Both the position numbers and the translations under genes were made by a program. This document shows, piece after piece, positions 38,968 through 57,400 of a stretch of 64,000 nt of DNA (the stretch's first letter is position 1; each line of letters starts with the position of its first letter). The notes below the pieces were generated by a model. That model was not told where the DNA came from. It did not search any database and was given only the letters and a program-made list of their open reading frames with translations. This DNA comes from Ectocarpus siliculosus (lineage: Eukaryota > Sar > Phaeophyceae > Ectocarpales > Ectocarpaceae): NCBI GenBank assembly GCA_000310025.1, contig FN649732.1, positions 1,503,417 to 1,567,416 on the forward strand. Direction: 5' to 3'.

Positions 38968-41184
38968 AGAAACTGTTCATTTTGGGTTTGGTGGCGCACG
39001 CCCAGAAAGCACTGGGGGCAAGCGGCCTTCAGCAGGAACAACAAGCAGCAGGCACACGAAAGGCCCAGGGCCCCAACGGCCCCAACGGCAAACAAGAAAA
39101 CAACCAGGACCAACGTGCAATAAGGGCGTGCGGCGTGCGTGCTGTCGCTTAGGTGCCCCAAGATCCAGGTGTGCCTGCCGCATGTGTGTTTCACTACATA
39201 TGGCATTACTCACACTTGCATGAGGTCTGTGTATTGCCAGCGGGGTTTGCTCCTGTGGACAGCCAAGGTGCCAAAACATCGTACTACTGACTGCATGTAC
39301 ATGTATGTCACACGTCTCGTTGTATCTATGCATGTCACATGCATGTCACACGTCTCACATCTTTTTCCCGCCTTCTCAGGGCATTTTCCCACGGAATCGC
39401 CATTTCCTCAAGAAAAAAATTGTTGCGCGTATTGCCAACAGCAGGAGAGACTCTGCCTGTTCGCCTCCACATGTATTCTGGTGCCGCCCTGCTCGCACCA
39501 CCAGGCATCGCACATCATGTGTAGTCTAGACTATGCTATGGACTTCAAAATATTCAACCCTAGGTGTGGGTCCTTATCCGATTTTGAATGCGTACAGCAG
39601 TATGTAGTCCATATAGCCGTTGACCACGACACGAGTCGTGCGCCGCCCTATATTCACGCTGGTGGGATCGCATGCCAGGTTGTGTTGGTCGGGATGGTGC
39701 AGAATTTGCCACGTGCACCATATACGTGTCTGCGTCGACTTCACTTTAGACAACTACTGCGAAAAAGGGATGCCGGACGATCTGAGGTTGAGATATACGA
39801 ACCGAAAGTTTCATGGCGAAGGGCTCGCGGTATTACAGTACATTGTAGTCCCACCCGATGGGCATATGGGGGATGTGTGAGTGCTGATCCGTTGCCCTCC
39901 TCAAGCATGACACGGCAAGGTTGTGGTGTTCTTCCCTCACCAGTAACCGCTAATAATTGAAGCGCACCATAGACATTTTCCAGAGCAACCCCCCTCGTTT
40001 GGCGGTCCCCGGAGTTTTCTTGCTAATTTCTTTGAAAATGCTTTTGGTCGTTTCGAAGTTTTGACTGCCAGACACCCTTCGCTGTCTGTCACAAGACGAC
40101 ACAAGAAGCTACAGAGAACTACATGGATATCTTGACGCATTCGTACAGCGCCGCCTACGCCCGTCGGCTCAACGAGAACCGGAACAATACAAAAGCACTT
40201 GCCTTGGCGACATTAACAGATGCACCCCCCAGTCCCCCTATTTGGTGCACCTTCACGGGCCTCCATCCGTGGGATTCGATGAAAGATGTCGTGTTGGATC
40301 CTATATTGTCAACGGGAATGATACACGTTTCGCACAACGCGCATTGATATATTTGTGCTGAACCGAGAGGTATACTTTATTGTGTCTGTCTATTGTCTTT
40401 TGTAGCAGCGGGACTCCTCGTAGAAGAATAAAACATCCCAACCTCACGACATGGATTTCTTCATGGACGTTTCTGAGTTTTTTCTCTGAAGCGAACGGAA
40501 ACAAGTTCCGGTCTGCGGTCTTCTTGTTCGTACCGAAGACCACCCGCCTTCCACGGCTACTATGACGAGTTGTTTTTTTGAGAAACTCACGCTGGTATCC
40601 TCCCCGATTGTCCCCGATTGTTGTTCTCGCGGACTGGATCTCGGCAACAACTTCGGCGAGTAGACTCAGCAGCAGCCGAGATTTGCTGCCGTTGAGAATC
40701 CACGATGAAGCATCCACGGCGGTGCCTGGCGTTGCCGATGGCGGCAGTTCTGCTTGCTCCTGTCTGCCACGGTGGGTGCCATGTAGCCCACATGTTTCAA
40801 TAGCAACAACGTGGTTTTTTTACAGCGGGGCGGAATGCGCCAGGCTCCTGCGCTAGGTTCTTTTTTTGTCGAGATGCCCACAACATATCTCCCCTCCAAT
40901 CCCCAGATCAGATGTTGGCGCCGCGTGGGGTCGCAGTTCGCACCAGAAGTGTGGACAAGACGAGGTCCACCACCATGACTTGCAAAAGGCTAGTAGCTCA
41001 CTCCACAGCGCCGGTGTTACATAATCGCCTTGCCACGCCGTTATTGCTCTCTGAAGGGCGATCTCCTGGCGTAGATCGACTGGAAGGTGGAAGATGGTTC
41101 GAAGCTTTTTACAGCCCAACATTCGTGGCGCAGATAATCCGCATGCGTATTGCAAGCAGTGTCTGGGCTGAACGATAAACCTTG
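38968..41184. other. divergent intergenic region between gene B and the receptor kinase
   Basis: About 2.2 kb separates the two divergent genes and should hold both promoters. A 273-codon plus-strand frame at 39139-39960 is Cys/His-rich with no recognisable motif, and I take it as chance. A minus-strand stretch at 40590-40720 (SKSRLLLSLLAEVVAEIQSA, then GTGAGT) looks exon-like but could not be connected. A signal-peptide exon for the receptor kinase is expected here and was not found. Confidence 0.45.
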
Positions 41185-44100
41185 ATGGTGTTGGCAGGCG
41201 ATCTCGAACAGGACCGCGAGGTTCTCATCACGCTGTACAACGCGACGGGCGGGCCCAATTGGAATTACAACGACGGTTGGGCCACGGATGACAGCGACAT
41301 GACCTCCTGGTACGGGCTCTCCATCAACGAGACAAGGTCGTATGTCTCGAGCATCTCCCTGATTAGAAACAATTTGCAAGGTAAGTCCTATACCGTTGGT
41401 CTCTGGCGAGTTTTGATCCAAAGGCGGGAGAGACGTTCTTGCGTCGACGAACGTGCGTGCGTCTGCGCGGCTCCAATGTGCGGCGACTCCGTCGTGCCTA
41501 GTGTTTCATTTCGCAGACTAACCTACCCATCCCACCCAACCACGAACGACTTCACAGTTCCGAATCTGGGCAATGCTGCCTGCGCGTTGTGTTTAAGCCT
41601 GCCCTTCTTGCTCTGGAAGATGTGTAACAAACGATACGGCCTCCCCGTGCTGCTAGTCGAACCGGCTACCGTGAATAGTATCCGGCTGACCCGCCACCTC
41701 ACGCACCAGCCGCGTTTTGTGGAACATAACCGTTATTGCGTCAACGGCCGACCGATGATTCCACTGCACTGACGTTCCTCCCGTTCTTGCTGTCCCGCAA
41801 GGTGACCTTCCGCCAGAACTCGGCAACCTGACTGCGGTAGAAGACATCTACCTGGGAATCAATTCTCTCACAGGTGTGTCGATCTGTGTGTGCGAGCAGC
41901 GGATTTCTCATGATCAGGAACGCGTACTATTGTCACGATGTTTCGCCAATGAAACCATCAGCAACGAATAAGGTTCGCTGGAATATTAGATAGTACTCTT
42001 GTTTGGTGATGAACGTCAGGCGTCTGGCGGAAGTCAAGACCACCATTCCAACGGTGTGAAGACTCGTGCATGTTGGGTAAAGCAGAGTGAGAACACGGGG
42101 ATCAAAAGGACAAACGAAGCACGAGACGTGTGCAGTTCTACTAGCTTCATCCGCCTGGTGCGTTTTATAGAAAACGACTGGCACAGCAGTTGCTGTTTTG
42201 GCGGCTTCATCAAGTCGAGCGATGAGCCTTTGCACGTCTTGTAACACCGTGCGGTTGAACTAATGCACCTCATGAGTAGGTTGGTCACCGTTCTCGGCGT
42301 CTTGATCTTCATATATGCGTATCGTTCTCGAGCTGCTGGATGTCGAAGTCGCCGGGCCATTTTGATGCACTCTGCGTGACGGTCATCACCGTCGTGATGT
42401 TGTTGTTGTTGTTGACATTTTGATGGCCAACATTGCTATCTATTTGGTCGGGGTCGGGGAACGAAATTCTGATAACGGCATAACATGACAAAATAACACG
42501 GGTCTTCACCAGTAGCTAGCGACCGCCGGCTTTGGTCTCAACCCGGCGGGGCACGCAGCGATAATAATCGACGGTATACCTGAGACGTTGAGTAATCAAC
42601 TGGCATTTTCTTCCGCTGAGAGGGCGCAAAGCGAATGTTTTTTTGGCTGCGAGCACCTTAGGCTGAGCGCCGTCATGTCCTCTGCCTCTCAATTGTACGA
42701 TCTGCTGTTGAGCGCTGTTGTAGAGGCGGTTTTGGTGTCAGTGCCAAGATGATTTTTCATGTTTTTATTTTTCAACACATCTCACATCGTGTTGGTGTTT
42801 GGGTTGTATCGGTGTTTTCTTATCCATGCATCGTCAAGGTGCCAGCGCTTTCCTTGAGTTTTTGTTTGCTTGGTCTTGGTTTATTTATCCCGCAGGTCCT
42901 ATCCCTCCCGAGCTGGGGAAGTTGCAGAATCTGGAAATCCTGAACCTAGGCACAAACTTCTTAACCGGTGAGTTTAGTGCTACGTAGACTACATCCGGTG
43001 TTGCCACCCTGGGTGTGCGTTAGAGAGAAGGCACACCGTGCCCGAAATTTACGTATCGAAGACTGTACTGTCGCGTTGCGCTTATCGTTGGAACCCTTCG
43101 TGGGTCCGTCGAGGCAGATGCCGTACGCGCCATGTTTTGCCGCGCCGTGTGCGTCATTTGGTCTTTTGCATGGATTAGATAACCGAGGTTCTATGGATAT
43201 TGTCCATGGGTTTGGGAACGGTTTTATTGTTTTTTGGGTCAGATAGATCGCCTTGACGTGACTGCACGTTCAAGCGCCTCGTTTTCTTGGTGACAATGAG
43301 CCTAATTCCGACTGATCGTCTTCTCTGCTGACAATGACAGGCACTATCCCCAAAGAGTTAGCCGAACCGAAGTTTCTTTCTGAGCTGGTCCTTGGCGAAA
43401 ACGAACTCGACGGTGAGAAGAAACGAACGCCGTGCGAGAGAATGCGACTCGATCGAGCGACTGGCGCGTTGCAGATCGGATGTGAAAATCCGGAGACGCA
43501 AATGATATCTATGTTGCCTCCCAGGCAAACCCTGAAACTCGCGGAATCGCGGTTGCCTTAGATGCCCCATGCGGTGTTAAGGTTTGGGGAACCCTCATCA
43601 ATCTTCGTAGAGGACTTTGGGACGGGAACAAAACCTTCTCCGAAAACCTATTTTGGGTACGTACCAATGCGCAGTCCGGCGCTCAAGAGGAGCGCCGACT
43701 GCGTTCAGCCGATCAACCAGTACAGGGCCTCTCGTCAACAACGCGATAAAGCAAACATGGCTTCTATGTTGTCTTGACTACCCAGCACGATAGGCAGATG
43801 GATGCGTAGTTCTTGATGTTAATGCCGTTGTTGCTCTCTTAACAAAAAACGGCCAGGATTACCTCTTCCCCAAACCCCTTGTGACGACCTAGTCCAACCG
43901 AGAAACAACATATTCGGTGATTGACAGGCGAGATACCTCCACAGCTCGGGAATCTGGAAGAGTTGCAGGCGCTCACCCTGCAGGACAATCAACTCACCGG
44001 TATGATGCTCGATGTTGTGCTTGTCGCGATGTTGTTTTTGTTTGGTTGGGTTGTTGAAAGCAAAGCGTGACGAAATCTCGCCGTATCATGGTGTTGGTAC

Positions 44101-44927
44101 ACGCTCTACGTTCCAATGTTTCGTTCGTCTACTGGTTCGGCGTTTTTTTATTTTGATTTCTTCGAATTTCCCAACAATGAATTGAGTGTGGGCATAATGC
44201 TACCAATGACGGGAACGTTCCCTATGGGTAGTGACTCAAGCGATTTGTGAGGAACGCTGCAGCTGATTCTCCGGCAAAGAAACTCACCAAACGCAGCGTT
44301 GCTTTCGGCGCTCGACTTTAGCGTCAAGCCTAAATGATGAAGTGCGGGTATGCGTGATTAGGATACTTTGAACCCCCACGCTTACGCTCTTACCTCCCGT
44401 TCGCTCTCTTGACAATACCTGCTGCTCTCGCTCACATCTCTGCAGGGGAAATCCCTGTCTCCCTGGGGAATCTTTCATGGTTGCGGACCCTTAGTTTGTC
44501 GGACAACCTTCTCACAGGTGGGTTTGGGTGTATCGCGCGGTAGATGGAATAAATGACGACAGGATCAAAACATTTCGGTTGGTTTATGGGATACCAACAT
44601 CAACTTATGGCGACATAACTGGAGTAAGTGAAGACGAGGACGACTCTTCCCCACCCCGCTGTTCTTGTCTTCCCCCTCCGTTTACTTGTGTGAAGACGAG
44701 AGCAACTCAATTGGTGAACAACAGAAACATCACGGGCTTGATGTGCTATGCACACTCGATTACCGGTATTCGTTGCGGGCGAAGCCATTGGTTTTCCTTC
44801 GTGAGCCACCCTTGAGAATGTCTGGCGTAGAAGGGCCACGAGCTCGCCAGCGTTCAGAGTTGAGATACAACGAAAGAGGAACGCTGTTGTTGCCATTTGC
44901 TGTTATTTCTGCTGCTGCTGCTGCTGC

Positions 44928-44983
<56 letters not shown>

Positions 44984-47900
44984 TTGCTGTTGTTTGTCGC
45001 TGCGTGTGTCAAATACCTCTCACGTTGTTGACACTGGTGTATTGCTTGTTTTGAATTATATGATGCTCGTTTTGCTGCCACCCTGCCCACTTGCAACCTA
45101 GGAGAAATCCCTGAGGGGATCGGCCAGCTAGTGGTCCGTGGAAGCCTCACTTGGTTTCTCTGGCTTCAAAACAACTACCTCACAGGTATTGTCTCGAGCA
45201 CTCACCGAGCGATTTCGAAATGATTTGCCGTTTGCCATAGTACATATTTTCCCGTCAGTACTTGGCTCGTGGTTGTTAGGAGAAGGACAGCTTGTTGTCA
45301 GAAGCGCGGTAGAATGGGGTCTGTTCCACTCCCCACTTGGTAGTGAGGTCTTCTGTACGGGGTCTTGGGGAAGCGTACCTGGAGCCTGAAGCGCACAGGA
45401 TCTCGCCGACAAACATGGGTTTGCACACAAAGGGACATGGTGAGTCTGGAAGACTGGTGCACAAGAAGGGACATGGTGAAGACTGGTGCTGGTGCTCGTA
45501 TGATAGTACGTTCCGGCGCATGTAGGGCAGATGGATGCTCGATCCTTGAAAGTTATTACTCTTGGGAGAGTCGCCGTCACTTCGTGCACGCCTATGCTAT
45601 CGACCCAGCTTCTTCCTTCTGCAACGCCCTTCTTTTATACCGCGGCTGTCAAGCACTGCTGCCGAACGATGACGTCAATCCTTTAACATCTCCATGGTTG
45701 TCGTTTTTTCATTTGAAATCGCCGACCATGAAGTAGCTATACCACCTGAAGCTCGTTTGTCGACGAGGCTGCATGGTTCGCGTTTTCGTGCAAAGGAGTG
45801 AAGAACGCTCATTGCACTATCGGTGCGTTAGCCTAGACAAGTGCTTATCCCGGCGTTTCGGCTTTCACGGTACGTCCCACGATAGCTTTCACAGTGATAA
45901 ACTCCTCCATGTCCTGTCTTGGCGAACCAAGCCTTGTAGCGCAAGACCCAGCCGAGGGGGCAAACATGGACTTAAAGTACCACACCGCTGGGGGTATAAA
46001 TGGTGGTGCCGGATAGTCACTTTTCCTAGAGCCGAGTTGACACATCTCCACGACAAAATGCATGATGCATTCTGCATCCCTAGTCCTGCCTCGAGACCTT
46101 CACAGGATGTGTGAAAACCATCACCTGACACCTAGGACGACGTGGTGTCTTGGTGTGTACGTCGTGAAATCACGTATCACCGCTACGTGTTACATGACAC
46201 TTTTTTTCGCAAGTGAAATTCAAAACATGACCCGACCCTAGGACAACGTCTTGTGGCATAGATCCTCACACCACGTACATATCTGTGTTACAACGAATTG
46301 CTGCACGTTAATGTTCAGGAGAAGTACCGGAAGACATTCCGTACTACACGCCGACCGAGCTGGATAGTTCGACCACCTACATCCTAAATGCCGATTTGAC
46401 CGGAAACCTGCTCACGGACTGGCCGGACCAGAGAGAGGGTGAGGACCGTTGAGGGGTTGCCTCTCGCAGCACGTCAAGACAGCAGCTGTTTATCAACGTG
46501 GCAGCAGTTGTGAAACATAGCACGGCAGTTGCCTTCTTGCATTTCAGTCTACTCCCCTTACCGAGAATGATTACAGTCCCATGCCGTGAGCAACGTATTT
46601 CAACTATGCCCAGCCGACCACTCACACAGACGTTGCGACGCCTGTGTCTCCTTCCTCCATCTGCCGTAGAGGGTGCGACGGCACCACCACTGACGTCATC
46701 GACGGCAGATGGATCCGTGGGCGTTGGAAACACCACAAGCAGCGGTAGCTACAGCAGCAGCGACAGGGGCGTTGGGAGCAGCAGCGGTACCCCCCCATCG
46801 CAATCACCATCGATGTCGCCTTCTGCTTCTGGAGATGACGACGTAGTTGTTGCGGCGACGTCATCTTCATCTTCAACGACGGTGATAGCGGGGATCACGG
46901 CGGGGGTGGTCGTGGGCGCGGTGATACTAGCCGGGGCGCTCATCTTCTGCTTCATGCAACGGAGGAAGAATAGCAAGGACAGTAGCCGTGATGCGGTGGC
47001 GTCTAGCGCGCACAAGTTCCCGCCGGCGTCGCCGTCGGCTCCTGCGGGCAAGGGGCTCTTGCCTCTGTCCGGCGCGCTCGGCGACACCTACGGCGACGGA
47101 GACGAGGAGAAAGCCTCTTACTCGTGGACGAGAGGAGACGGCGGCATGAATGGCGACAACGGCGGCAGAAGCGGAGGCGGCTCTTCCTTTTCACCAGGAC
47201 CGCTCTTGACGACTGGGGCTGCGGCTCGCCTTCGCGCGTCCGCCTCCTCGTTCTCGGCCCTGAATGTCAAGAAAAATAGCAACGATCGTGACGTCACTGA
47301 TGCTCTTCCAACGGCTTCCGCTTCGGCCACCGCCAGTGCCGTTAACGGTGGCAGCTCCGGCGTCACCAATGGAAAGAACGGCGTCTCCTTGACCGAGTCT
47401 ACTGTACAACAGTCTGCCTCGGGCAGTGTTGCGGAGGGGGTCGGCACGACGGCGCTAGAGATGGCGACGGCGGCCTTGGCCAGCGCGGAGGCGTTGGCGC
47501 AGCAGTCATTCTTCCCTGGGGTGAGCAAGACGATGAACGCAATGCATTACCAGTAGTCGTTGGTCGTTCGTTTTTGTTGTTGTTGTTGCTGTTGCTACTG
47601 CTGCTGCTGTTGATGGTGGTGGTGGTGGTGCTGCTGCTGTTGCCGCTACAGCTTTTGCTGTCAGTATCGTTGAAGTTGGTCTAAAGCAATACCCTACTGA
47701 TGCCCTACACTGGGTGAAGTAAAAGTACCGAGAGAACCTCAGCATAGCTGTACCTGATACTGACAACCTCTGTCATGTCGATCGTTTCCTGTTGGTTCGT
47801 TGGTGTTGCTTTGGTTGCACTCTCTGAAAGGTAAGGGAGGCTGCTTCTGTTGTGGCCGGGCTGGTGAGACTAGCGTCGGATCACAAAAGCAACGGCAGGG

Positions 47901-50900
47901 AGTCGGAGAAAAGGGCGAGGTGGTGCCGATCTATCGTGCACACTCTGGAGCGAGCCGGGGAGGTTCTGGCAAAGGTACGGACAACTCGGGGGGTGGGGGG
48001 CACTGTTTCCCATTTTATCTTCGATTTACCGTTCTATCGCATCCTCTGCTGTACCCCCCTCCCTCCCATCAAGATACAGGGAGATGTTTGAGGCATGGAA
48101 TAGCCGGGAGAAGACGGTAGCTGTACTGGGGCATGGGAAATGGGTTGAAAAGGCGGGAAGTGATATCGACAGGATAACATTTATGAGCCACCTTTGGCAA
48201 AGAAGAAAGGATGGATTGATCATCGGTAATCGGTCCTGTGAGCTCATGGTTCGTCCTCTCGAGGACACGGGTCAATGGTCTCACCGCACAGGCATGCAAA
48301 ACATAAGAGTACGCCCCCCCCCCTCCTTCCATCCTCGTTGCTTGGGTATCTCTCGATTTATTCGCGCGTGCTGTTGGCACTCTATCTTCGCTTGTGGTTG
48401 TCTTTCGCTCTCTCTGATTGATTGGCTATGTACACCGTTCCTGCGCCTTTCCCGAAAATCTGAACGGAGGTCACTGTAAAATGAATCGTTGCACCCTGTG
48501 CCTCATTCTAGGCAGCATTCATGGTCCCTGTTTTTGTTAAAGGCGCAACGGAGACGCAGTGCGACGTGGTGGACACAATCCTTTCCGATTTTGATGTATC
48601 GTTGTCGTGTCTGACGTTTCCCTTCCTTGTTTCGAAGTTCATTTTTTATGTAACACCCACCTCACTATGCTGCGAAAACCGTTGGACTCCCCAAACGCCC
48701 TTGGGCGAAGCATTGCATACCCCCGCAATCCACCGTATATCATATTGTTCAACCTGTCCGCGCTTCGTCGGGTCGTCCGTTTTAGAAGGTGAAGGCAGGA
48801 AGGGGGGATGATCAGGCTGTGCGTGTTCTCCTCGACGATGTCCAGGACTCCATCGCCGACTTGCTGCAGATTATTGAGTCTTACAAGAGCAAGAACGCCC
48901 TGTCCAAGGTATTCGTGTCCTCCCTTTGCAAGAAACGTCAGGAGGAGGCAGAAGTCGCCATTAACGCTGCCGTGCAGCGGCTTCAGGTACGAGAGGAGCA
49001 GGTGTTTCTGTTTCTGTTTGCTGTTTTAGTTAGGGTATCGTCTCGTCTAGTTAGCGATCCTTTTCGCTGTTTAGTTCCGTCAGTTGTTCGCTACAGCGGA
49101 GCTTTCCTTGGGCCCAGTCCTTCGACTCATCGTCAGTGGAGGCTCTCGAATCGTGGCCATACGTCGCCACCGCTACCGCAACTTTCCTTAGACGCGAACA
49201 GACGCCTGTTTCAGGCGGCTACACATATGGGTAGTGTACCGCTATGATCCTCCTGACGCTCTGTTGTTGCTAGGGTAGACTGCTTGTTTGGCACGGCATG
49301 CTCTCTAAGAGTATCCCATGTGTCCGGAAGGGTCATCAGATAGTTCATTCTCTGACGGGGACTACTGTAGAGTTCGGAAAAAAACTATTCAGATTAGCAA
49401 CACCGCTGGTTCGTGCTCTCCAAGACATACTCCAACAAACCAACCCGTACAATTTCAACGCATCCTTGTTCATTGTTCCCCTATGCCCGGACCTGTGCAC
49501 GATGACATATATCGTTCAGCTTGGTCTGCAAGTTCGCGTGGGTCAGGACCTGGCGTCCGTGGGAGAGGCGGTACAGGAAGGCCTCAACCTTCACCAACGC
49601 GCTTCCGAGGTAAGCTCTCTCGGGCATATAGAAGATCCACCAACGCATTTTTTTGGGAGGAAGCTCGCCTCTCCTCGGCGTTGCTGCCGACTACTGCAGG
49701 CAGCATTTCGTCGGTTTTCCAACAATGACTGCGTTATGTGATTGCCAAACCTCTGGGCTACAGATGGATTACCAGCAGAAGACATTGGCGACCTCGCTGC
49801 CAACGCACCGAAGACCGAACCAAGAAAGTGCTTCCTCTACCCCGCACGCCAATACCGACATTAATCGCCTTCGGATGGCGAATTGTCGGTGCAAGCACTT
49901 GTGTATGGCTCCGTTTGGGATAGACGATGGAAATGGCAGGCCAGCCGGGAAGGTGGAAACGTAGAGAGACCCTAGCTGATGGAGGTATCGAAGTTGTCCA
50001 GTAGAGGCGAACATATGGTTCAACACTCAACTACCGAAACAATTGTTTGCAACAAAGAGGCTTGGGTATAATACGTCTTCCGGGACGACGTACAGGCACC
50101 ACCACCGTCTCGACAAGCTGAAGGTTGGAATTCCGTTTGGATGCAATATTATCTTGGTCTAGATGAGTGAGTTTGGAAAGGTTGCGAGCAGGAAAGACGT
50201 TTGAGCCACAACACCAACCCTACCCCCTGTTTGCTGTTGCAACAGGAGTCTGGGATGGTGTCGAAGAAGAAACGCAGGCAGCACCGCATGGATCAGCTGG
50301 AAATCCCCGCGTCGGACGTGGAAGTCACGAACGAAGTGCTGGGCAGGGGCGGATTCGGCACGGTTTATCTGGCCGACCTGCATGGCCTCAACGCCGCGGC
50401 CAAGGTGGTGGTCTTCGAAGATGAGGAGGAAGACGATGATGAACACGATTGCACTGACTCTGTTTCCAATGGCACCGACGGTGTCCTCGACGGCAGTCGT
50501 GGTGTTCTCGATAGCTCCGCTAGTACCGGTTACGGAGAATCCCAAAGCCGATCAAAGCCCCAAACGAAGGCGGAGGCTGCGGCGATGGGACAGGGGCAGA
50601 CGGAAAGCACCACGTCGCCCACCGACTTACAGCAGCAAGGGCTATCACGTGCGTCACAGCAGTCGCGGGAACACCAGCGGCAGCGGAGGATGTTCATGCG
50701 TGAGCTTGAAGCCATGAAGCGCCTGAGGGGACCTCACACGGTCACTATCTACGGTGCCGTGACCAGCCTTCCTGATCGCCTCGTCCTGGTGAGCAGCAAT
50801 GGGCGATAGATCCATAATTTTCCCAGCGTCATATCGAAGACGAAGTTGCTGCCCGTTTGATGGCGTTCGGGATGTAGACCGTACGACCAGAAAATCACGT

Positions 50901-53407
50901 GTAGCTCTCCCGGGTACAGCTTGCGTTATGCATTGGTGGTTCTTGTCAAACGATGTTGGGGGTACCGTATTCTACGATGGGAGAAACTTTCGGTACGTAG
51001 AATCCATGGGATGACGTCGGTAGATTTGTCGCTTCTTGTGTCCTCTCGCGAGGCCTGGGAGTCTTCGTTACAGCCACAGATAACTTGTTGTTGCCGTGTT
51101 TCTGAGATGGCCGACACGTTTTTTTTGTTTTGGTGGTGCTTGCCTGCGCCGTGACTGTCCCACTTACGTAAACGAAACGTAGGTCATGGAGCTCCTGCAG
51201 GGCGGGGATCTACGCCATCGCCTGAAGAAGGCGAAAGAGCCGCTGGAAGAGAAGGTTTTGAGGAAGATCGTGAGGGACGTTTGCTGCGGGATGGCCTTCT
51301 TGCACGCCAAGGCGACCGTCCACGGCGACTTAAAGTCGGCGAACGTTCTGTTCGATGCCACGGGGAGGGCCAAGGTGCGTAACGTCTTTGTCCATGCGTT
51401 TATCATTTTCACGCCGGAGTACCACCGACACGTGCTTTGTTCATACCTTCCTCATTCGTTGAACTCCGACGGATACTTCCGAATTCATTCGTTTGTTGTT
51501 CCGACTCCGGTGACCACTCCATACTATTCGAACGAGCGACCAGTCGACCGTTTCGGCTGCTTTTTGCTTTTTCACCTCCAACTGTTGGTGTCTGAAGGCC
51601 GAGGCCGTTGAGTGTGTGAGCTCGAAGGTGTTGGGACCCAAAACCTCATAGCAAAGGTGTCGCTCCAGAACGGTGTGAATACGTGCTCATTTCGTCATTG
51701 TTGCCCTCCTCCCACATCTTTTCTGTGCTCTCTCCTGCTTCATCGGTAATCTAAAAAAAAGTTGAACCGTCTTGTTACTCGTACTCACTCACTTAGGTAG
51801 AGGATATATTCTTACGTGCTCCGTGTGTCAATGTACAAAATTGACTTCACATAGGGTTATTGATTTCGTTGTGGTGGCCCTGGCCCTGTCGTGCCTTCTG
51901 TTTTTCAGCGTGTCCTGAAATACAGAAGTTCTTATTCTTTCGCTGAGGGTGGGGATCTCTCGGCCGTTTTCTCTCTTTCGGTATTGTGCATACGTCCTTC
52001 GCGTCCGCTGCGCTAGCGCAACTTTAGGTCCTGTCATTCTCTGCGGAGATGGTCGAGGCCGAACACCACAGACATATACGGGGTACAGCTCTGCGCTTGG
52101 TCTCCTCGCGTGAAAAATGTAATTTTCTTTCCCATGTGGGGACCATGCGTGAGGCAAATATTGTTGCGTGATCTTGCTAAAACGTGTACTTTTTCTACTT
52201 GGAACGCGTGTCATGGAAGTCTAGAACGCAGCTCAATTGTCTGGGCAACATGAGACTGTGAAGTCCTCTGCCTATTCATGAACTGCCACCTTTCGCTGCG
52301 TTCATCCGCTTTGCGCAACACAGATTGCAGACTTTGGAACATCACTCTGGACGCAGCACACGACACGCCTGGCAACGTACACGACCAAACCGAGAGAAAT
52401 GATCGGAATGAGTCTTCCGTGGGCTGCTCCTGAGGTAGGATACAGAAAGCAGAACGCGCTGATGAAGTGCAAGCCCGCGGTGAAGACAAAACCAAGCTTT
52501 GCTGCAAACACAAGAGTGTGCGGCAAACGTGCCCTTTACCGTCCAGTGTGTTGGCCCCGGAACACCAGAGAAAGCGGCGACACGCATAGAAACGGCTTGA
52601 TGTGTGTCCGACTACGCAGCAAAGATTCGTTCGTGAAGGCCGGACTACGTCGTGTGATGGGTGTCGAAAAGGCCTTCGAGCAATTGCCTGTACAATTTTG
52701 TCCGGTTCGGCAAAAATGTGTTCAATATCTTGTTGATCGCGGGCAGTTGGGGCTCGGGGATACTTTCCGTGATCTTTACCTCAGCTTCTGTGAAATACGT
52801 CTGTCTGCAGGCCAAGGACCGCGTAGGCTCCCGACTGTCCAGATGGTGGTAGACCATGAAACATTGAATGGTTCCGTAAACGGAGCAATACCTTCCGCCA
52901 TATGCGGCTGAGTCGAATGAAGCATGAAGCAAACCGTACAAGAATTTTCATGGCAATGGTGTTGAACGGTTTCGCAAGGTGTTGCACTCACTTTCTCGGA
53001 TGTCCTGTCCTACGCCCTCCCCCGTTCTTGTCTCGCTCTTCTAGGTTTTGAATCGACGAGGTTCCAGCTTCAAGGGCGATGTGTACAGCTTTGGCGTGGT
53101 GGTGTGGGAGTGCCTGTCCCGCGAGGTTCCGTGGAAGGGGGTCGCCGGGGTGGACAAGCTCGTGCTGGCCGTAACTGCCGGAGAAAGACCACCCATCCCC
53201 GAAAACGCCCCCCACGACATCGCTACCCTGGCAGAAGCATGCTGGGTTCATGATCCGGCCGCTCGGCCAACGTTCAAGAAGGTTCTGGCTGATTTCAAGC
53301 TAGATTCCAGCAACAACGAAAGCGGCAGCAGCAGCAGCAGCAACAACAACAACAACACATCCCCCAGACCGCGTGAGGGGCAGGAAAATAGCGACGAGAA
53401 AATATAG
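41185..53407 (+). CDS. LRR receptor-like kinase with MLKL-type helical domain, 16 exons
   Basis: Exons: 41185-41380, 41802-41873, 42896-42967, 43341-43412, 43928-43999, 44446-44517, 45102-45185, 46319-46438, 46670-47520, 47831-47974, 48789-48986, 49520-49609, 50246-50788, 51183-51374, 52324-52434, 53045-53407; total 1083 aa in frame. Exon 1 codes an N-terminal LRR cap (LYNATGGPNWNYNDGW). Exons 2-7 each code one LRR (IPPELGNL-type, ending LTG). Exon 9 has a Ser-rich stalk, one membrane helix (GITAGVVVGAVILAGALIF) and basic stop-transfer. Exons 10-12 form helices with YKSKNALSKVFVSSLCKKRQ and LQLGLQV, resembling the MLKL/HeLo-like four-helix bundle. Exons 13-16 code the kinase: glycine loop LGRGGFGTVY, Lys in AAAKVVV, Glu in FMRELEAMK, HGDLKSANVLFD, IADFGTSLW, LPWAAPE, DVYSFGVVVWE, RPTFKKVL, all intact. 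An acidic and Gln/Ser-rich insert of about 80 residues sits between the Lys and the alpha-C helix. No signal peptide is seen at this ATG, so an upstream first exon is likely. Confidence 0.9.
44909..44993. repeat. (CTG)n microsatellite in receptor kinase intron
   Basis: About 24 CTG units with one CCG interruption are followed by TTG-rich degenerate units. It is the longest triplet run in the window and lies in the intron before the last LRR exon. Confidence 0.95.
47575..47655. repeat. GTT/GCT/GGT triplet-rich tract
   Basis: A mixed triplet tract (TTGTTG, CTGCTG, GGTGGT) directly follows the donor of the membrane-helix exon of the receptor kinase. The frame runs 36 bases into the intron before a stop, so retention of this intron would give a receptor without helical or kinase parts. 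Confidence 0.7.
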
Positions 53408-54427
53408 GAGAAAATGTACGATTTGTTTTTGTTACTTACCACCGGAAACGGTGCGCATGTCACGGACGATCCTAGAGCGGGCGCGGTCACCTCACGTGGA
53501 GCCTATAGCGGTAGCGGCCTCACTTCCTAGAAAGACGAGAGTCGGGTTCCAGGCACTGAGCGTCCTCAGTTCGTGGAGTTGTCGTCGCTATTAAATCTAG
53601 GTGGTCGGTCCGTCCACATTCCAATTTCTTTCTTCGATTCGACTTGGGTTTAGGGTTGGGTAGGGGCTGGAAACAGGGATAGGGGTGCGTTTCGGGGACA
53701 GGGTTCAAACGAGAAGGGCACGGTTAGGCCTCGGAGGGCCCCTCATTTTCAACTGTTGAACACGACCATCTCGACCTTCGTCGATGGCGCTGCCGTGATC
53801 CTGAAGCCGCCAGCACTCCCTGCCCCGGGATGGAGAAGAACAACCTCGTTTTCACTCCCGTTCTGGGCAACTGGGCACGGCTTTCTAACGGCGCTGCGTC
53901 CTTTCCCGTGAAGGCGCGGCAGTGGCCCAGGGCTGCGCCGAGATTGCAAGCCCTGTCGCGCATAGATAGCCTGCGCCAAGCGCCCCAGTGAGCCCCTGCA
54001 ATGGCGAGGACTTTGATTCCTTTCGCCACGGCACGCTCGAACAGAGGGCTTAGTCGCGCCCGCTAGCGGTCAGCTCTGTCACATACTCACAGAAGAAGTT
54101 GCTGTTCTGGCGATCATGTTGAAAAACCAACGTCCCCAAGATTCAGATCGCTTTATCCCCATGGGTGCATAAAGTGGCGACAGCGATCCTCTCGCGGTGT
54201 GAGCGCGCGATGTTGTGTGCGTGTGTCTTGTGTGCGGATGCATGCGTCGTGGACAGGATACCAGCACGCATGTGAACAAGACTGCGATGTAAAACATGAA
54301 CGCCGGGGCTCCGTGCATCGTAACAGGCACAAACCGCACGTACCCTCATTTCCTGCGATGCTTTGCTGCCCAACCGACAAGGGCACAGCTTTCTTGCAGC
54401 TCCTGCTCTCTCCACTCAACCAACAAC
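53408..54427. other. intergenic between receptor kinase and exonuclease genes
   Basis: About 1 kb between two genes on the same strand, holding the 3' untranslated region of the kinase and the promoter of the exonuclease. A short GGGTTTAGGGTTGGGTAGGG-like G-rich stretch lies near 53645-53668. No exon or RNA gene was recognised. Confidence 0.6.
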
Positions 54428-57400
54428 ATGAGACGAGGACCGCGAAGAGCCGTGCGTGCTCCCCTCTTTGCGCTCTCGCTAGCTCTGCATGCCAATCTTA
54501 CCTCATCATTGTTGCACCACCTACTGGCAACGCCAGTAGGAGATGCGATTTCAAGGAATCACGCAACGGCGACCGCCGCTGCTGCAGGAACGGCGGCAGG
54601 AAGAAGAAGGAGAGCACGACCACGGCCTGTGTGGCACTTCCATGGCAACGTTTCTCCATCAGGGCGTGGGCAATCCAGTAGATCTCCAAGATGCGGCGTT
54701 AGAAGCGGTCCGGAGGTAGCAGCTGCAGCAGCGGCTGACGGCGAAAATGGAGGGCCGGATGCTGCGGCTGCGGAGGGCCGTAATGTGGGAGCGCGTCCTG
54801 CGATGGTAGACCCCCCACCTCTGACCCACGACCAGCTTCCTGAGGAGAGCATTTATCTGCTTGATGGGACCTCCATGCTGTTCAGGGCGTTCTACGGCCG
54901 CGGAGCCGGCGGGTGAGTCCTACTGGCCAAGTATAGCACTGCGCAGTGCGGAGTTTCTCAACGGATACGTAGTACTTTCAGCGTGCCCCCCGTTTACACA
55001 TATTTGCCAGATTGCACACGATGCGATGTACGGAACAACCATGGTGATGAAGATCATTGCTATCACCCGTGGAGACACCACCCTTGTGTGCGTATGCTTT
55101 TTGTAACATTGGCATACTTGGTAGCGTGTGATGCAGAAGAACCGCAGTAGTTTACTATACTATCGTCGACAGCGTACATGCACCCGGAAATCTGAGGTGG
55201 CAGACCGCCGTAGTACCTCCAATTCCTCTGTTCCTTTGGGATATCGTCGCTCTCAGAGTGTTCCTGCCGTATGGGTTTGCATCTCCGACTCCAGAGCTTC
55301 GCTGCGCTCCCCTGTACACTGGCTGGCGACATATCCCCTCCCTTCTGACAGGTACTTGGCCTCCAACGGCGCAACGGAGGTAGGCGCCGTGCTGGCCATG
55401 GGGATAGAGTTCGCGCAGTTCATCAATGAGGTGAGCACAGCTCTAGTGCTGTTGTGTGCATAGCTCCCTTGAGCCTCTAATTGCCCTCGCCCAACCAAAC
55501 TTGGCTACAAATGTGGATAGACGCATGGGTTTACTCCCGGGAAAGCGAACCGCGGAAAAGGTGACAGCATCAGTTCCCCTGCTGTGCTCAAAGTAGGAGC
55601 ATGTGTTGCGGTGTAAGTTCGAGGAAATTAGAATCGCATCTGGGGAGGTGTTCGGAGGGTTCCCTCACTTGCTTGGCGATATTGATCGCAGCGTGTGGCA
55701 TGCAGTGGTTCTTGTGTGGAACCCTCGTCTCCTGAGAAAGTGGTGATCCACACGGGTTGGTGACTGAATAAACCAATCACCAGAGGTTGTGGAGTTTCCT
55801 TACTTGCTATGGGGCGAGGAATGCCAAGTTGGACAGAACGAGCTCAGTCTAACAAGGTTGAGGGAGGTTGGGCCCAGCCATCGTGGACTCGTCTCTCCCA
55901 ACCTCGGGAAGACGCGTGATGAACTGTTCACAGCTGTTGAGGATCGTGAGAGGAACGGTTCGCGGAATGGGGATCTCTCCGCACCGATCCCAGAATCCGC
56001 CGCTCCTGCTCATCTCTGCCAGTGCGGGATTTCCCTGTCCTGTTCACCAACAGTTTCGTCACTAGTGCTGATCTCAGAGCTGCTGCTGCCCGTTATTTCG
56101 GACCACTTGCGATCACGTGCTCTTCGTATTGCGATGTCGCGGCAGGTAAAGCCACGATATGTCGCCATGGCCTTCGACGTGGGACGAGAAACAACCTTCC
56201 GAAGAAAGCTGTACCCGCAGTACAAAGCGCAGAGAAAGCCTGTACCGTTCGACTTGACCTTGCAGGTGATAAAAACCGTACGTCTTCTTGTGCGCAGAAT
56301 GCGCTGCTGGAAGAGCGACGCCAGAATACACACTATTGCAAGGTCCGTGGGGGGCAAATTTGGAAATAATGCTTGTCCATGCACATTCGCAACGCAACTC
56401 ATACCTGCACGGATTGACTGTTTCACCTATAAAACAATATTTGGGCCTACGCTCTCGCGGTTTTGTCGGAAAAGCTCGAACGTTCCTTCCTTGATGGTGC
56501 GAGATACCGTTGACGTTCACGCAGCCACGCCGACGTCCATCAACGACAACACGGCGTGCCTCACCCTTGCCTCACCTCGCCCTCGCAGATTCCGCTCGCG
56601 AAGGCGCTTTCGGAGGCCCTGGGGTGCCGCACGTTCGAGATGGAGGGCTACGAGGCGGACGACGTCATGGCCACGCTCGCCAGGCAAGACGCACGGGCGG
56701 GGACTTGGCTTGGTTGGTTCGTCACGAGATGGGACGGATGTATTTGTTTGATCGGTTGAGTAGTTGCAAGTGCGGTTCGGTCTCAGCGATCAAGGCTTTG
56801 TTTTTTCTTGCTGGGTTTGGAAGGTGTGGATGTTTTGTGTGGTCGGTTGTTTGACTACGCGCACGCGCCGTTGGGCGGTTGCTGTTGCTGCCCCTGCTGC
56901 CGCTGCTGCTAAGGCTGCTGCTGCTGCTGCTGCCGTAACTATTGTTATTTTTTTTGCCGGGCGAGAGCCGGAGATTGATCCGAATATGCCTGCACACAAC
57001 AAGTGTCAAAATGCGCCTCACGTTGCGTTGTTGCATGGCTGCGTTGTTGTTGGGCATCGCACATTCTCCAGGTGGGGGCGCTCAGTGGGACTGGGAGTGG
57101 TGGTGTGCTCCTCTGACAAGGACATGTGCCAGCTTGTGAGAGATCGTGTCCACGTCATGCAACCAAGGAGGTGAGGTGCCGAGGCAGGATCTGCTCGTTG
57201 GTGGTGATGCTTGAGTCGAGGAGTAAGGTATTCCTGGAACGGTCCAGTGCTGCACTGTCACAGTTGCGCGCGATAGTGCAGTTTTGAGCTGTGGGGAGCA
57301 GCAGCAGTACAGAGCGTCCTTCCGCATTTCCAACCCCTTCTTTACCCTGTTGGGGACTGCGCACTGCCTTTGGAAAGCCAATAGCAGCATGCCTCTCCAC

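Follow-up and report, generated by a model that had tools for sequence, protein, structure and literature searches.

Brown algae form their own lineage of complex multicellular organisms, and little is known of how their receptors signal. PMC3268121 and PMC8307928 report an independent origin of LRR receptor kinases in brown algae, and the former counts two such genes in Ectocarpus; the terms "juxtamembrane" and "intracellular" do not occur in its main text. A helical domain joined to a kinase is known from plant Pm13, which PMC10951266 describes as an MLKL_NTD-brace-kinase protein with all catalytic residues. Killing by HeLo-type domains, as stated in PMC12881547, depends on an extreme N-terminal helix.

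Here, we analyze a predicted LRR receptor kinase gene in a stretch of 64,000 nucleotides of the Ectocarpus siliculosus genome, referred to throughout as the window. We consider it reasonably probable that this gene belongs to a family of 20 loci built on a common chassis of linker, helical module and TKL-type HGDLKSAN kinase, in which the module couples or assembles the receptors and is not itself an executioner.

Predicted gene model

The gene is predicted to comprise 17 exons on the + strand (40705 to 53407) encoding 1,102 aa. All internal exon boundaries have an AG acceptor and a GT donor, and the splice phases are consistent, with exons 2 to 10 entered in phase 1 and exons 11 to 17 in phase 0. 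In the predicted protein, the LRRs come after a signal peptide and lead into a single membrane helix, a linker, the part encoded by three helical exons, and the kinase:

40705 to 40771, +, exon 1: contains the start codon and encodes a likely signal peptide (MKHPRRCLALPMAAVLLAPVCH), judged by eye
41198 to 41380, +, exon 2: N-terminal LRR cap, from the gene model
41802 to 44517, +, exons 3 to 7: five 72-nt phase-1 exons, each encoding one 24-residue LRR (41802 to 41873, 42896 to 42967, 43341 to 43412, 43928 to 43999, 44446 to 44517)
45102 to 45185 and 46319 to 46438, +, exons 8 and 9: final LRR and the C-terminal ectodomain portion, with homologs in L050
46670 to 47520, +, exon 10: Ser-rich stalk followed by the only transmembrane helix, the basic stop-transfer RRK, a linker of 169 residues and the start of the helical module
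47831 to 47974, +, exon 11: presumed bundle helices 1 and 2
48786 to 48986, +, exon 12: presumed bundle helices 3 and 4
49520 to 49609, +, exon 13: remainder of helix 4, then a brace-like helix preceding the kinase
50246 to 50788, +, exon 14: kinase N-lobe with an 86-residue acidic/Ser-rich insert
51183 to 51374, +, exon 15: catalytic loop HGDLKSAN
52324 to 52434, +, exon 16: DFG and activation segment up to APE
53045 to 53407, +, exon 17: C-lobe, Asn/Ser-rich tail and stop

The first-pass annotation had rightly taken 47831 to 49609 as helical exons, and the peptides that it quoted are present in the order it gave; its exons 10 to 12, however, become exons 11 to 13, and the gene starts earlier than it had proposed, at the signal-peptide exon. 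Exons 11 to 13 together comprise 145 codons, and alignment with paralogs places the start of the module ∼19 residues before exon 11, at residue 537, within the transmembrane exon. The acceptor of that exon was picked by phase and polypyrimidine tract from among several phase-compatible AGs, and its transmembrane helix spans residues 343 to 367. The ectodomain matches Pfam LRR_1 (E 4.6e-16) and the kinase matches PF07714 (E 5.9e-53, residues 840 to 1065). With a signal peptide, LRRs, a single membrane helix and a cytoplasmic kinase in one chain, the predicted protein has the makeup of an LRR receptor kinase, signal peptide and topology being read from sequence.

The catalytic set of the kinase is complete (GRGGFGTV, NAAAKV, HGDLKSAN and DFG), the HxD motif being HGD rather than HRD, and this TKL-type kinase is apparently active. 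Its nearest relative among kinases of solved structure is CTR1. HGDLKSAN and the ATP-site lysine are found in all 17 kinase rows of the family, which represent 16 loci, and DFG is found in 15 of them. In 5 of the 17 rows, a stop codon directly follows AAAKV, and an intron is therefore probable there; the insert in exon 14 sits at the same point.

The helical module in a family of loci

Introns of up to ∼1.1 kb separate the parts concerned, and the helical exons might thus come from a separate gene and be joined to receptor and kinase in appearance only. We reject this artefact as highly improbable on three grounds. First, the splice phases agree. Second, the bundle-kinase order is identical in all 20 genomic loci, in each of which a bundle exon is followed, 0.4 to 1.7 kb downstream, by a kinase match on the same strand. 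Third, in seven loci (L009, L010, L013, L014, L016, L017 and L054) one open frame holds both the membrane helix and exon 11, the first bundle exon. The membrane-helical region-kinase order is common to a gene family, and the helical exons are not an accident of one model. The order ectodomain-membrane-helical region-kinase read in the first pass accordingly stands in the 17-exon model, and its last three parts recur across the family.

A homolog of exon 11 lies upstream in 18 of the 19 other loci, and 15 of these 19 have a homolog of exon 13 behind a cag acceptor; exon 13 was not found in L013, L020, L022 and L026. Among kinase matches, 70 of 96 lie at most 8 kb downstream of a bundle. The family alignment covers 17 of the 20 loci and omits L011, in whose flank exon 11 was not found, L020, where exon 12 could not be extracted cleanly, and L027, where the frame of exon 12 is broken.

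A scan of 18 stretches for membrane helices gave credible helices in seven (L010, L016, L050 and L052 to L055), while none was seen in the stretch scanned for L056/L022 and L026. The scan overlooked helix-like segments in L015 and L051, and its misses are therefore not proof of absence; the stretches of L019, L021 and L023 to L026 extend only ∼0.5 kb upstream of exon 11. Among the window gene and L050 to L056, three kinds of ectodomain sit on the common chassis, two of them LRR and one propeller-like; L051 and L056 have no recognised ectodomain. Three exon pieces of L054 matched no Pfam family, and of two further pieces one matched the DUF5122 beta-propeller (E 0.027) and AFP_2 (E 0.035) and the other none; a cysteine-rich piece of L055 likewise matched no Pfam family. 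Some twenty genes appear to have a conserved helical module in common, located directly ahead of the kinase, and several of these genes clearly code for cell-surface receptors; single-pass receptors are predicted for the window gene and for several more.

An inverted paralog 43 kb away allowed dN/dS to be compared between parts of the gene. The ratio is 0.16 for the bundle and 0.14 for the kinase, against 0.42 for LRR exons 3 to 9 and 0.69 for the transmembrane/linker part (exon 10 residues 72 to 283); these sums exclude exons 1 and 2, for which the compared stretch gave no credible paralog match (E 2.8 and 2.5), and exon 16 has a high dS of 0.87 over 37 codons. In this one gene pair, the module is under strong purifying selection.

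Possible relationship of the module to MLKL_N

The helical region had been named MLKL-like in the first pass, and a profile search of 47831 to 49609 bears this name out in part. The 145-residue segment matches PF22215 (MLKL_N) with E 1.9e-4 over profile positions 23 to 125 of 142, yet the score of 20.9 to 21.4 bits falls under the curated cut-off of 27 bits. Across the family, no Pfam family is matched by more members than MLKL_N (11 of 17 with E values of 1 or lower; best E 1.2e-5), and it matches none of the 17 reversed sequences; on rescanning eight of the 17 members, it was found in only three, at 13.2 to 23.0 bits. A PDB search with a shallow profile of the family gave 14 matches with E of 10 or less, none of them MLKL, and hhalign gave a probability of 1.1% between the family profile and three proteins of the same genome whose loci exceed the MLKL_N cut-off (L001 to L003), both profiles being shallow. 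With the window copy below the cut-off and the PDB and hhalign comparisons negative, we reject MLKL membership as a fact; the weak, non-random match is suggestive only of kinship.

The score could instead reflect the general composition of amphipathic helices in a dimerisation or coiled-coil juxtamembrane region that arose independently. The subthreshold score and the negative hhalign and PDB searches fit such an origin, as do weak hits to further helical families: DAHL (E 0.0015 with the window segment; family best 0.0011), DYN1_lid (5 of 17 members, E down to 0.0033), GIT1_C (8 of 17, E down to 0.006) and Rx_N (3 of 17). However, MLKL_N is the match of best E, reversed controls give none, much of the profile is covered, and the placement of the module ahead of a TKL-type kinase agrees with MLKL_N. 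We regard an independent origin as a minority reading that still carries weight. A hydrophobic period at 100 degrees is present for helix 3 and absent for the long helix-4 stretch, and neither helix 1 (p 0.15) nor helix 4 (p 0.07) shows significant periodicity. Probably, the module is a four-helix bundle with a brace and a distant relative of MLKL_N/HeLo-like domains.

Discussion

The conserved position of the module before the kinase suggests a shared switching part. We think it most likely that the module is an oligomerising or autoinhibitory juxtamembrane part common to receptors with different ectodomains. Binding of an outside ligand would cluster the receptors, the helical module would then oligomerise or relieve the autoinhibition of the kinase, which would pass the signal onward.

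A more far-reaching scheme unites receptor and executioner in a single chain, in which the ligand, through the kinase or its phosphorylation, frees the bundle to insert into the membrane and kill the cell, as MLKL/HeLo domains do. Consistent with it are the weak MLKL_N relationship, the long linker tying the module to the membrane, the conserved basic runs at helix 2 (KRAR/RQCRS) and helix 4 (K-R-R), and the precedent of Pm13, which combines an MLKL_NTD with a catalytically complete kinase and whose line shows resistance with cell death (PMC10951266). However, the homology is under the cut-off, the kinase residues are intact, unlike those of MLKL, and a large receptor family with varied ectodomains would better suit general signaling. 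Moreover, the bundle is internal, with the 169-residue linker before it and the kinase after it, and therefore lacks the free N-terminal helix needed for HeLo-type killing according to PMC12881547, which makes the membrane-attack role put forward in the first pass doubtful. With the bundle internal and the kinase residues complete, we reject a pore-forming executioner as the leading explanation and consider it unlikely. We are similarly skeptical of its family-wide form. In that form, brown-algal surface receptors would embed an MLKL/HeLo-type bundle between membrane and kinase, so that ligand sensing outside would feed straight into a module that acts on membranes and induces death, and the sensor (plant-like LRR, LTTLP-type LRR or propeller) would be swapped while the chassis stays constant.

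A membrane-helical module-kinase chassis that stays constant while its ectodomains are exchanged would reveal the way in which brown algae built receptors. A firm MLKL/HeLo link, if true, would place a fold associated with death and immunity inside cell-surface receptors; should the module be an assembly switch only, it is still a defined part for deletion and testing.

Among known systems, animal MLKL and fungal HeLo/HELL domains share with the window protein a weak MLKL_N resemblance and a bundle adjoining a kinase-type domain. They differ in that HeLo-type domains use an extreme N-terminal helix and MLKL executioners combine an N-terminal bundle with a pseudokinase, whereas the window protein has an internal module and a complete kinase. 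Pm13 (PMC10951266) likewise carries a helical module, a brace-like part and a catalytically complete kinase in one chain; its domain is N-terminal, while the window module is preceded by ectodomain, membrane helix and linker. Within the same genome, L001 and L002 also have an MLKL_N stretch followed by a TKL-type kinase; their stretches score above the cut-off (38.4 and 36.2 bits), unlike the window copy, their kinases have HRD instead of HGD, no LRR was seen within 3.3 kb, and hhalign gave no link to the window module. The described Ectocarpus LRR receptor kinases have, like the window gene, an LRR ectodomain, a membrane helix and a kinase. Compared with the two genes counted in PMC3268121, we find 20 loci with a common helical module and kinase.

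Results

In our 17-exon model of the window gene (40705-53407, + strand, 1102 predicted residues), the parts follow one another along a single chain:

N-terminal, + strand: probable signal peptide, then LRR cap
Ectodomain, + strand: LRRs of 24 residues, in most cases each on its own 72-nt exon, phase 1
After the LRRs, + strand: Ser-rich stalk, then single membrane helix (residues 343-367) with RRK stop
Membrane helix to helical exons, + strand: linker of 169 residues
47831-49609, linker to kinase, + strand: three helical exons (11-13), phase 0
C-terminal to the helical exons, + strand: kinase, four phase-0 exons

Pfam assigns LRR_1 to the protein at E 4.6e-16 and a kinase domain at E 5.9e-53. 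A long run of GCT/CTG triplets (44911-44995) lies within an intron and, 3' of the gene (about 54293-56751), frames with LLDGTSMLFRAFYG and similar words resemble the 5'-3' exonuclease region of a DNA polymerase I. The EsV-1-7 repeat family, plentiful in brown algae, has at least 150 matches in the same genome (150 of 880 candidates scored) and was matched in 0 of 14 control genomes, a pattern indicative of a brown alga.

The module belongs to a family. Across the own genome (189 Mb, 492 contigs), exons 12-13 gave 22 matches at 20 loci, all 20 with a kinase match 0.4-1.7 kb 3' of the bundle on the same strand; of the kinase matches, 70/96 have a bundle no more than 8 kb upstream. Among the 19 other loci, 18 have an exon-11 homolog upstream, and 15 have an exon-13 homolog that follows a cag acceptor and begins LGLQ, LGLH or LDLQ. 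At seven loci (L009, L010, L016, L013, L014, L017 and L054), one unbroken frame spans membrane helix and exon-11 homolog, and both are therefore parts of one chain there. By homology, membrane helix and helical module are predicted to share a chain in the window gene also, in agreement with the order ectodomain-membrane-helical region-kinase claimed in the first-pass annotation.

That annotation also took the module for an MLKL-like bundle. MLKL_N is indeed the commonest Pfam match in the 17-member alignment (11/17 at E ≤1, best E 1.2e-5), compared with 0/17 for reversed sequences, whose best match to any family had E 0.007. The window protein matches MLKL_N at E 0.007 as a whole and, as an isolated segment, at E 1.9e-4 over profile positions 23-125 of 142, but with 21.4 bits against a cut-off of 27. 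Bits were below this cut-off wherever recorded (the best-E member has none recorded), a rescan matched MLKL_N in 3/8 members, and DAHL ranked second for the window segment (E 0.0015). MLKL was absent from the 14 matches of a PDB profile search with the module, and hhalign against own-genome MLKL_N proteins gave a probability of 1.1%. For these reasons, we call the module MLKL_N-like and do not count it as a member. In favour of the likeness, hydrophobic periodicity peaks at 95-105 degrees in presumed helices H0 (p 0.03), H1 (p 0.15), H2 (p 0.011) and H3 (p 0.002), but H3b peaks at 90 degrees (p 0.13) and the long stretch of H4 at 170 degrees (p 0.07).

An inverted paralog (G000:C7:1599385-1611500; L050, L029, L031, L045) lies 43 kb from the window gene, with kinase exons 89.5-100% and five 24-residue LRR exons 52-91% identical. 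For this single gene pair and by a simple count method, dN/dS is 0.16 in the bundle (dS 0.303, dN 0.048), 0.14 in the kinase, 0.42 in ectodomain exons 3-9 and 0.69 over the portion of the TM/linker exon that aligns. The bundle is constrained about as strongly as the kinase, and the sensor evolves faster.

Ectodomains differ among the few loci examined that share the chassis of linker, module and kinase. The window gene and its paralog carry LxGxIP-type LRR exons. L052 carries five LTTLPxGIF-type LRR exons at 481-501-base spacing (L052:268-2215; LRR_8 E 1.4e-12 on a piece joined by hand), and shares a LECLP cap with L053 and L055; this tandem arrangement suits repeat gain, loss or shuffling. 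At L054:2262-4149 (reverse-complement coordinates), propeller-like repeats recognized by eye (DGDGSVVMAGQTSGDF and similar), for which Pfam offers only DUF5122 (E 0.027), replace the LRRs upstream of the membrane-bundle-kinase chassis. No membrane helix was found in the available stretches of L056 (the L022 locus) and L026, the L026 stretch being short.

In the window-gene kinase, the Gly loop, the lysine of the ATP site, the catalytic aspartate and the DFG motif are all retained. HGDLKSAN occurs in 17/17 family kinase rows (16 loci). Among the best 60 of 2503 sequences in a solved-structure search, CTR1 came top; after it ranked tyrosine kinases, MLT and RIPK1. The N-lobe contains an acidic/Ser-rich stretch (50405-50659), at whose site 5/17 rows have a stop codon after AAAKV. 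Both the window gene and its paralog have an open frame across the stretch, with an in-frame indel of 9 nt, so that it is either an exonized intron or one that continues to be spliced out.

Discussion

The 2010 Ectocarpus genome paper reportedly describes an LRR receptor kinase family, and a 2024 multi-genome brown-algal paper is said to report this family together with propeller ectodomains. Brown-algal LRR receptor kinases are already published (PMC3268121, PMC8307928). Among the open-licence papers listed, no title or abstract opening described the helical module.

Two similar MLKL_N-TKL kinase genes of the same genome (L001 and L002, on G000:C10 and C29) exceed the Pfam cut-off and carry HRDLKSAN; no LRR was seen in either within 3.3 kb. 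Upstream in L002 lies what we take to be a reverse-transcriptase-like reading. A further MLKL_N stretch (L003, G000:C485:50478-50855; 34.1 bits) has a frame terminating in a hydrophobic segment, and no kinase was noticed by eye within 3.4 kb.

On the simplest reading, the module would serve as a part for regulated assembly or autoinhibition. Pm13 resistance needs MLKL_NTD, brace and catalytically complete kinase jointly (PMC10951266). HeLo-type domains attack membranes by the extreme N-terminal helix (PMC12881547); the N-terminal end is free there, whereas in the window-gene module it is tied to the linker.
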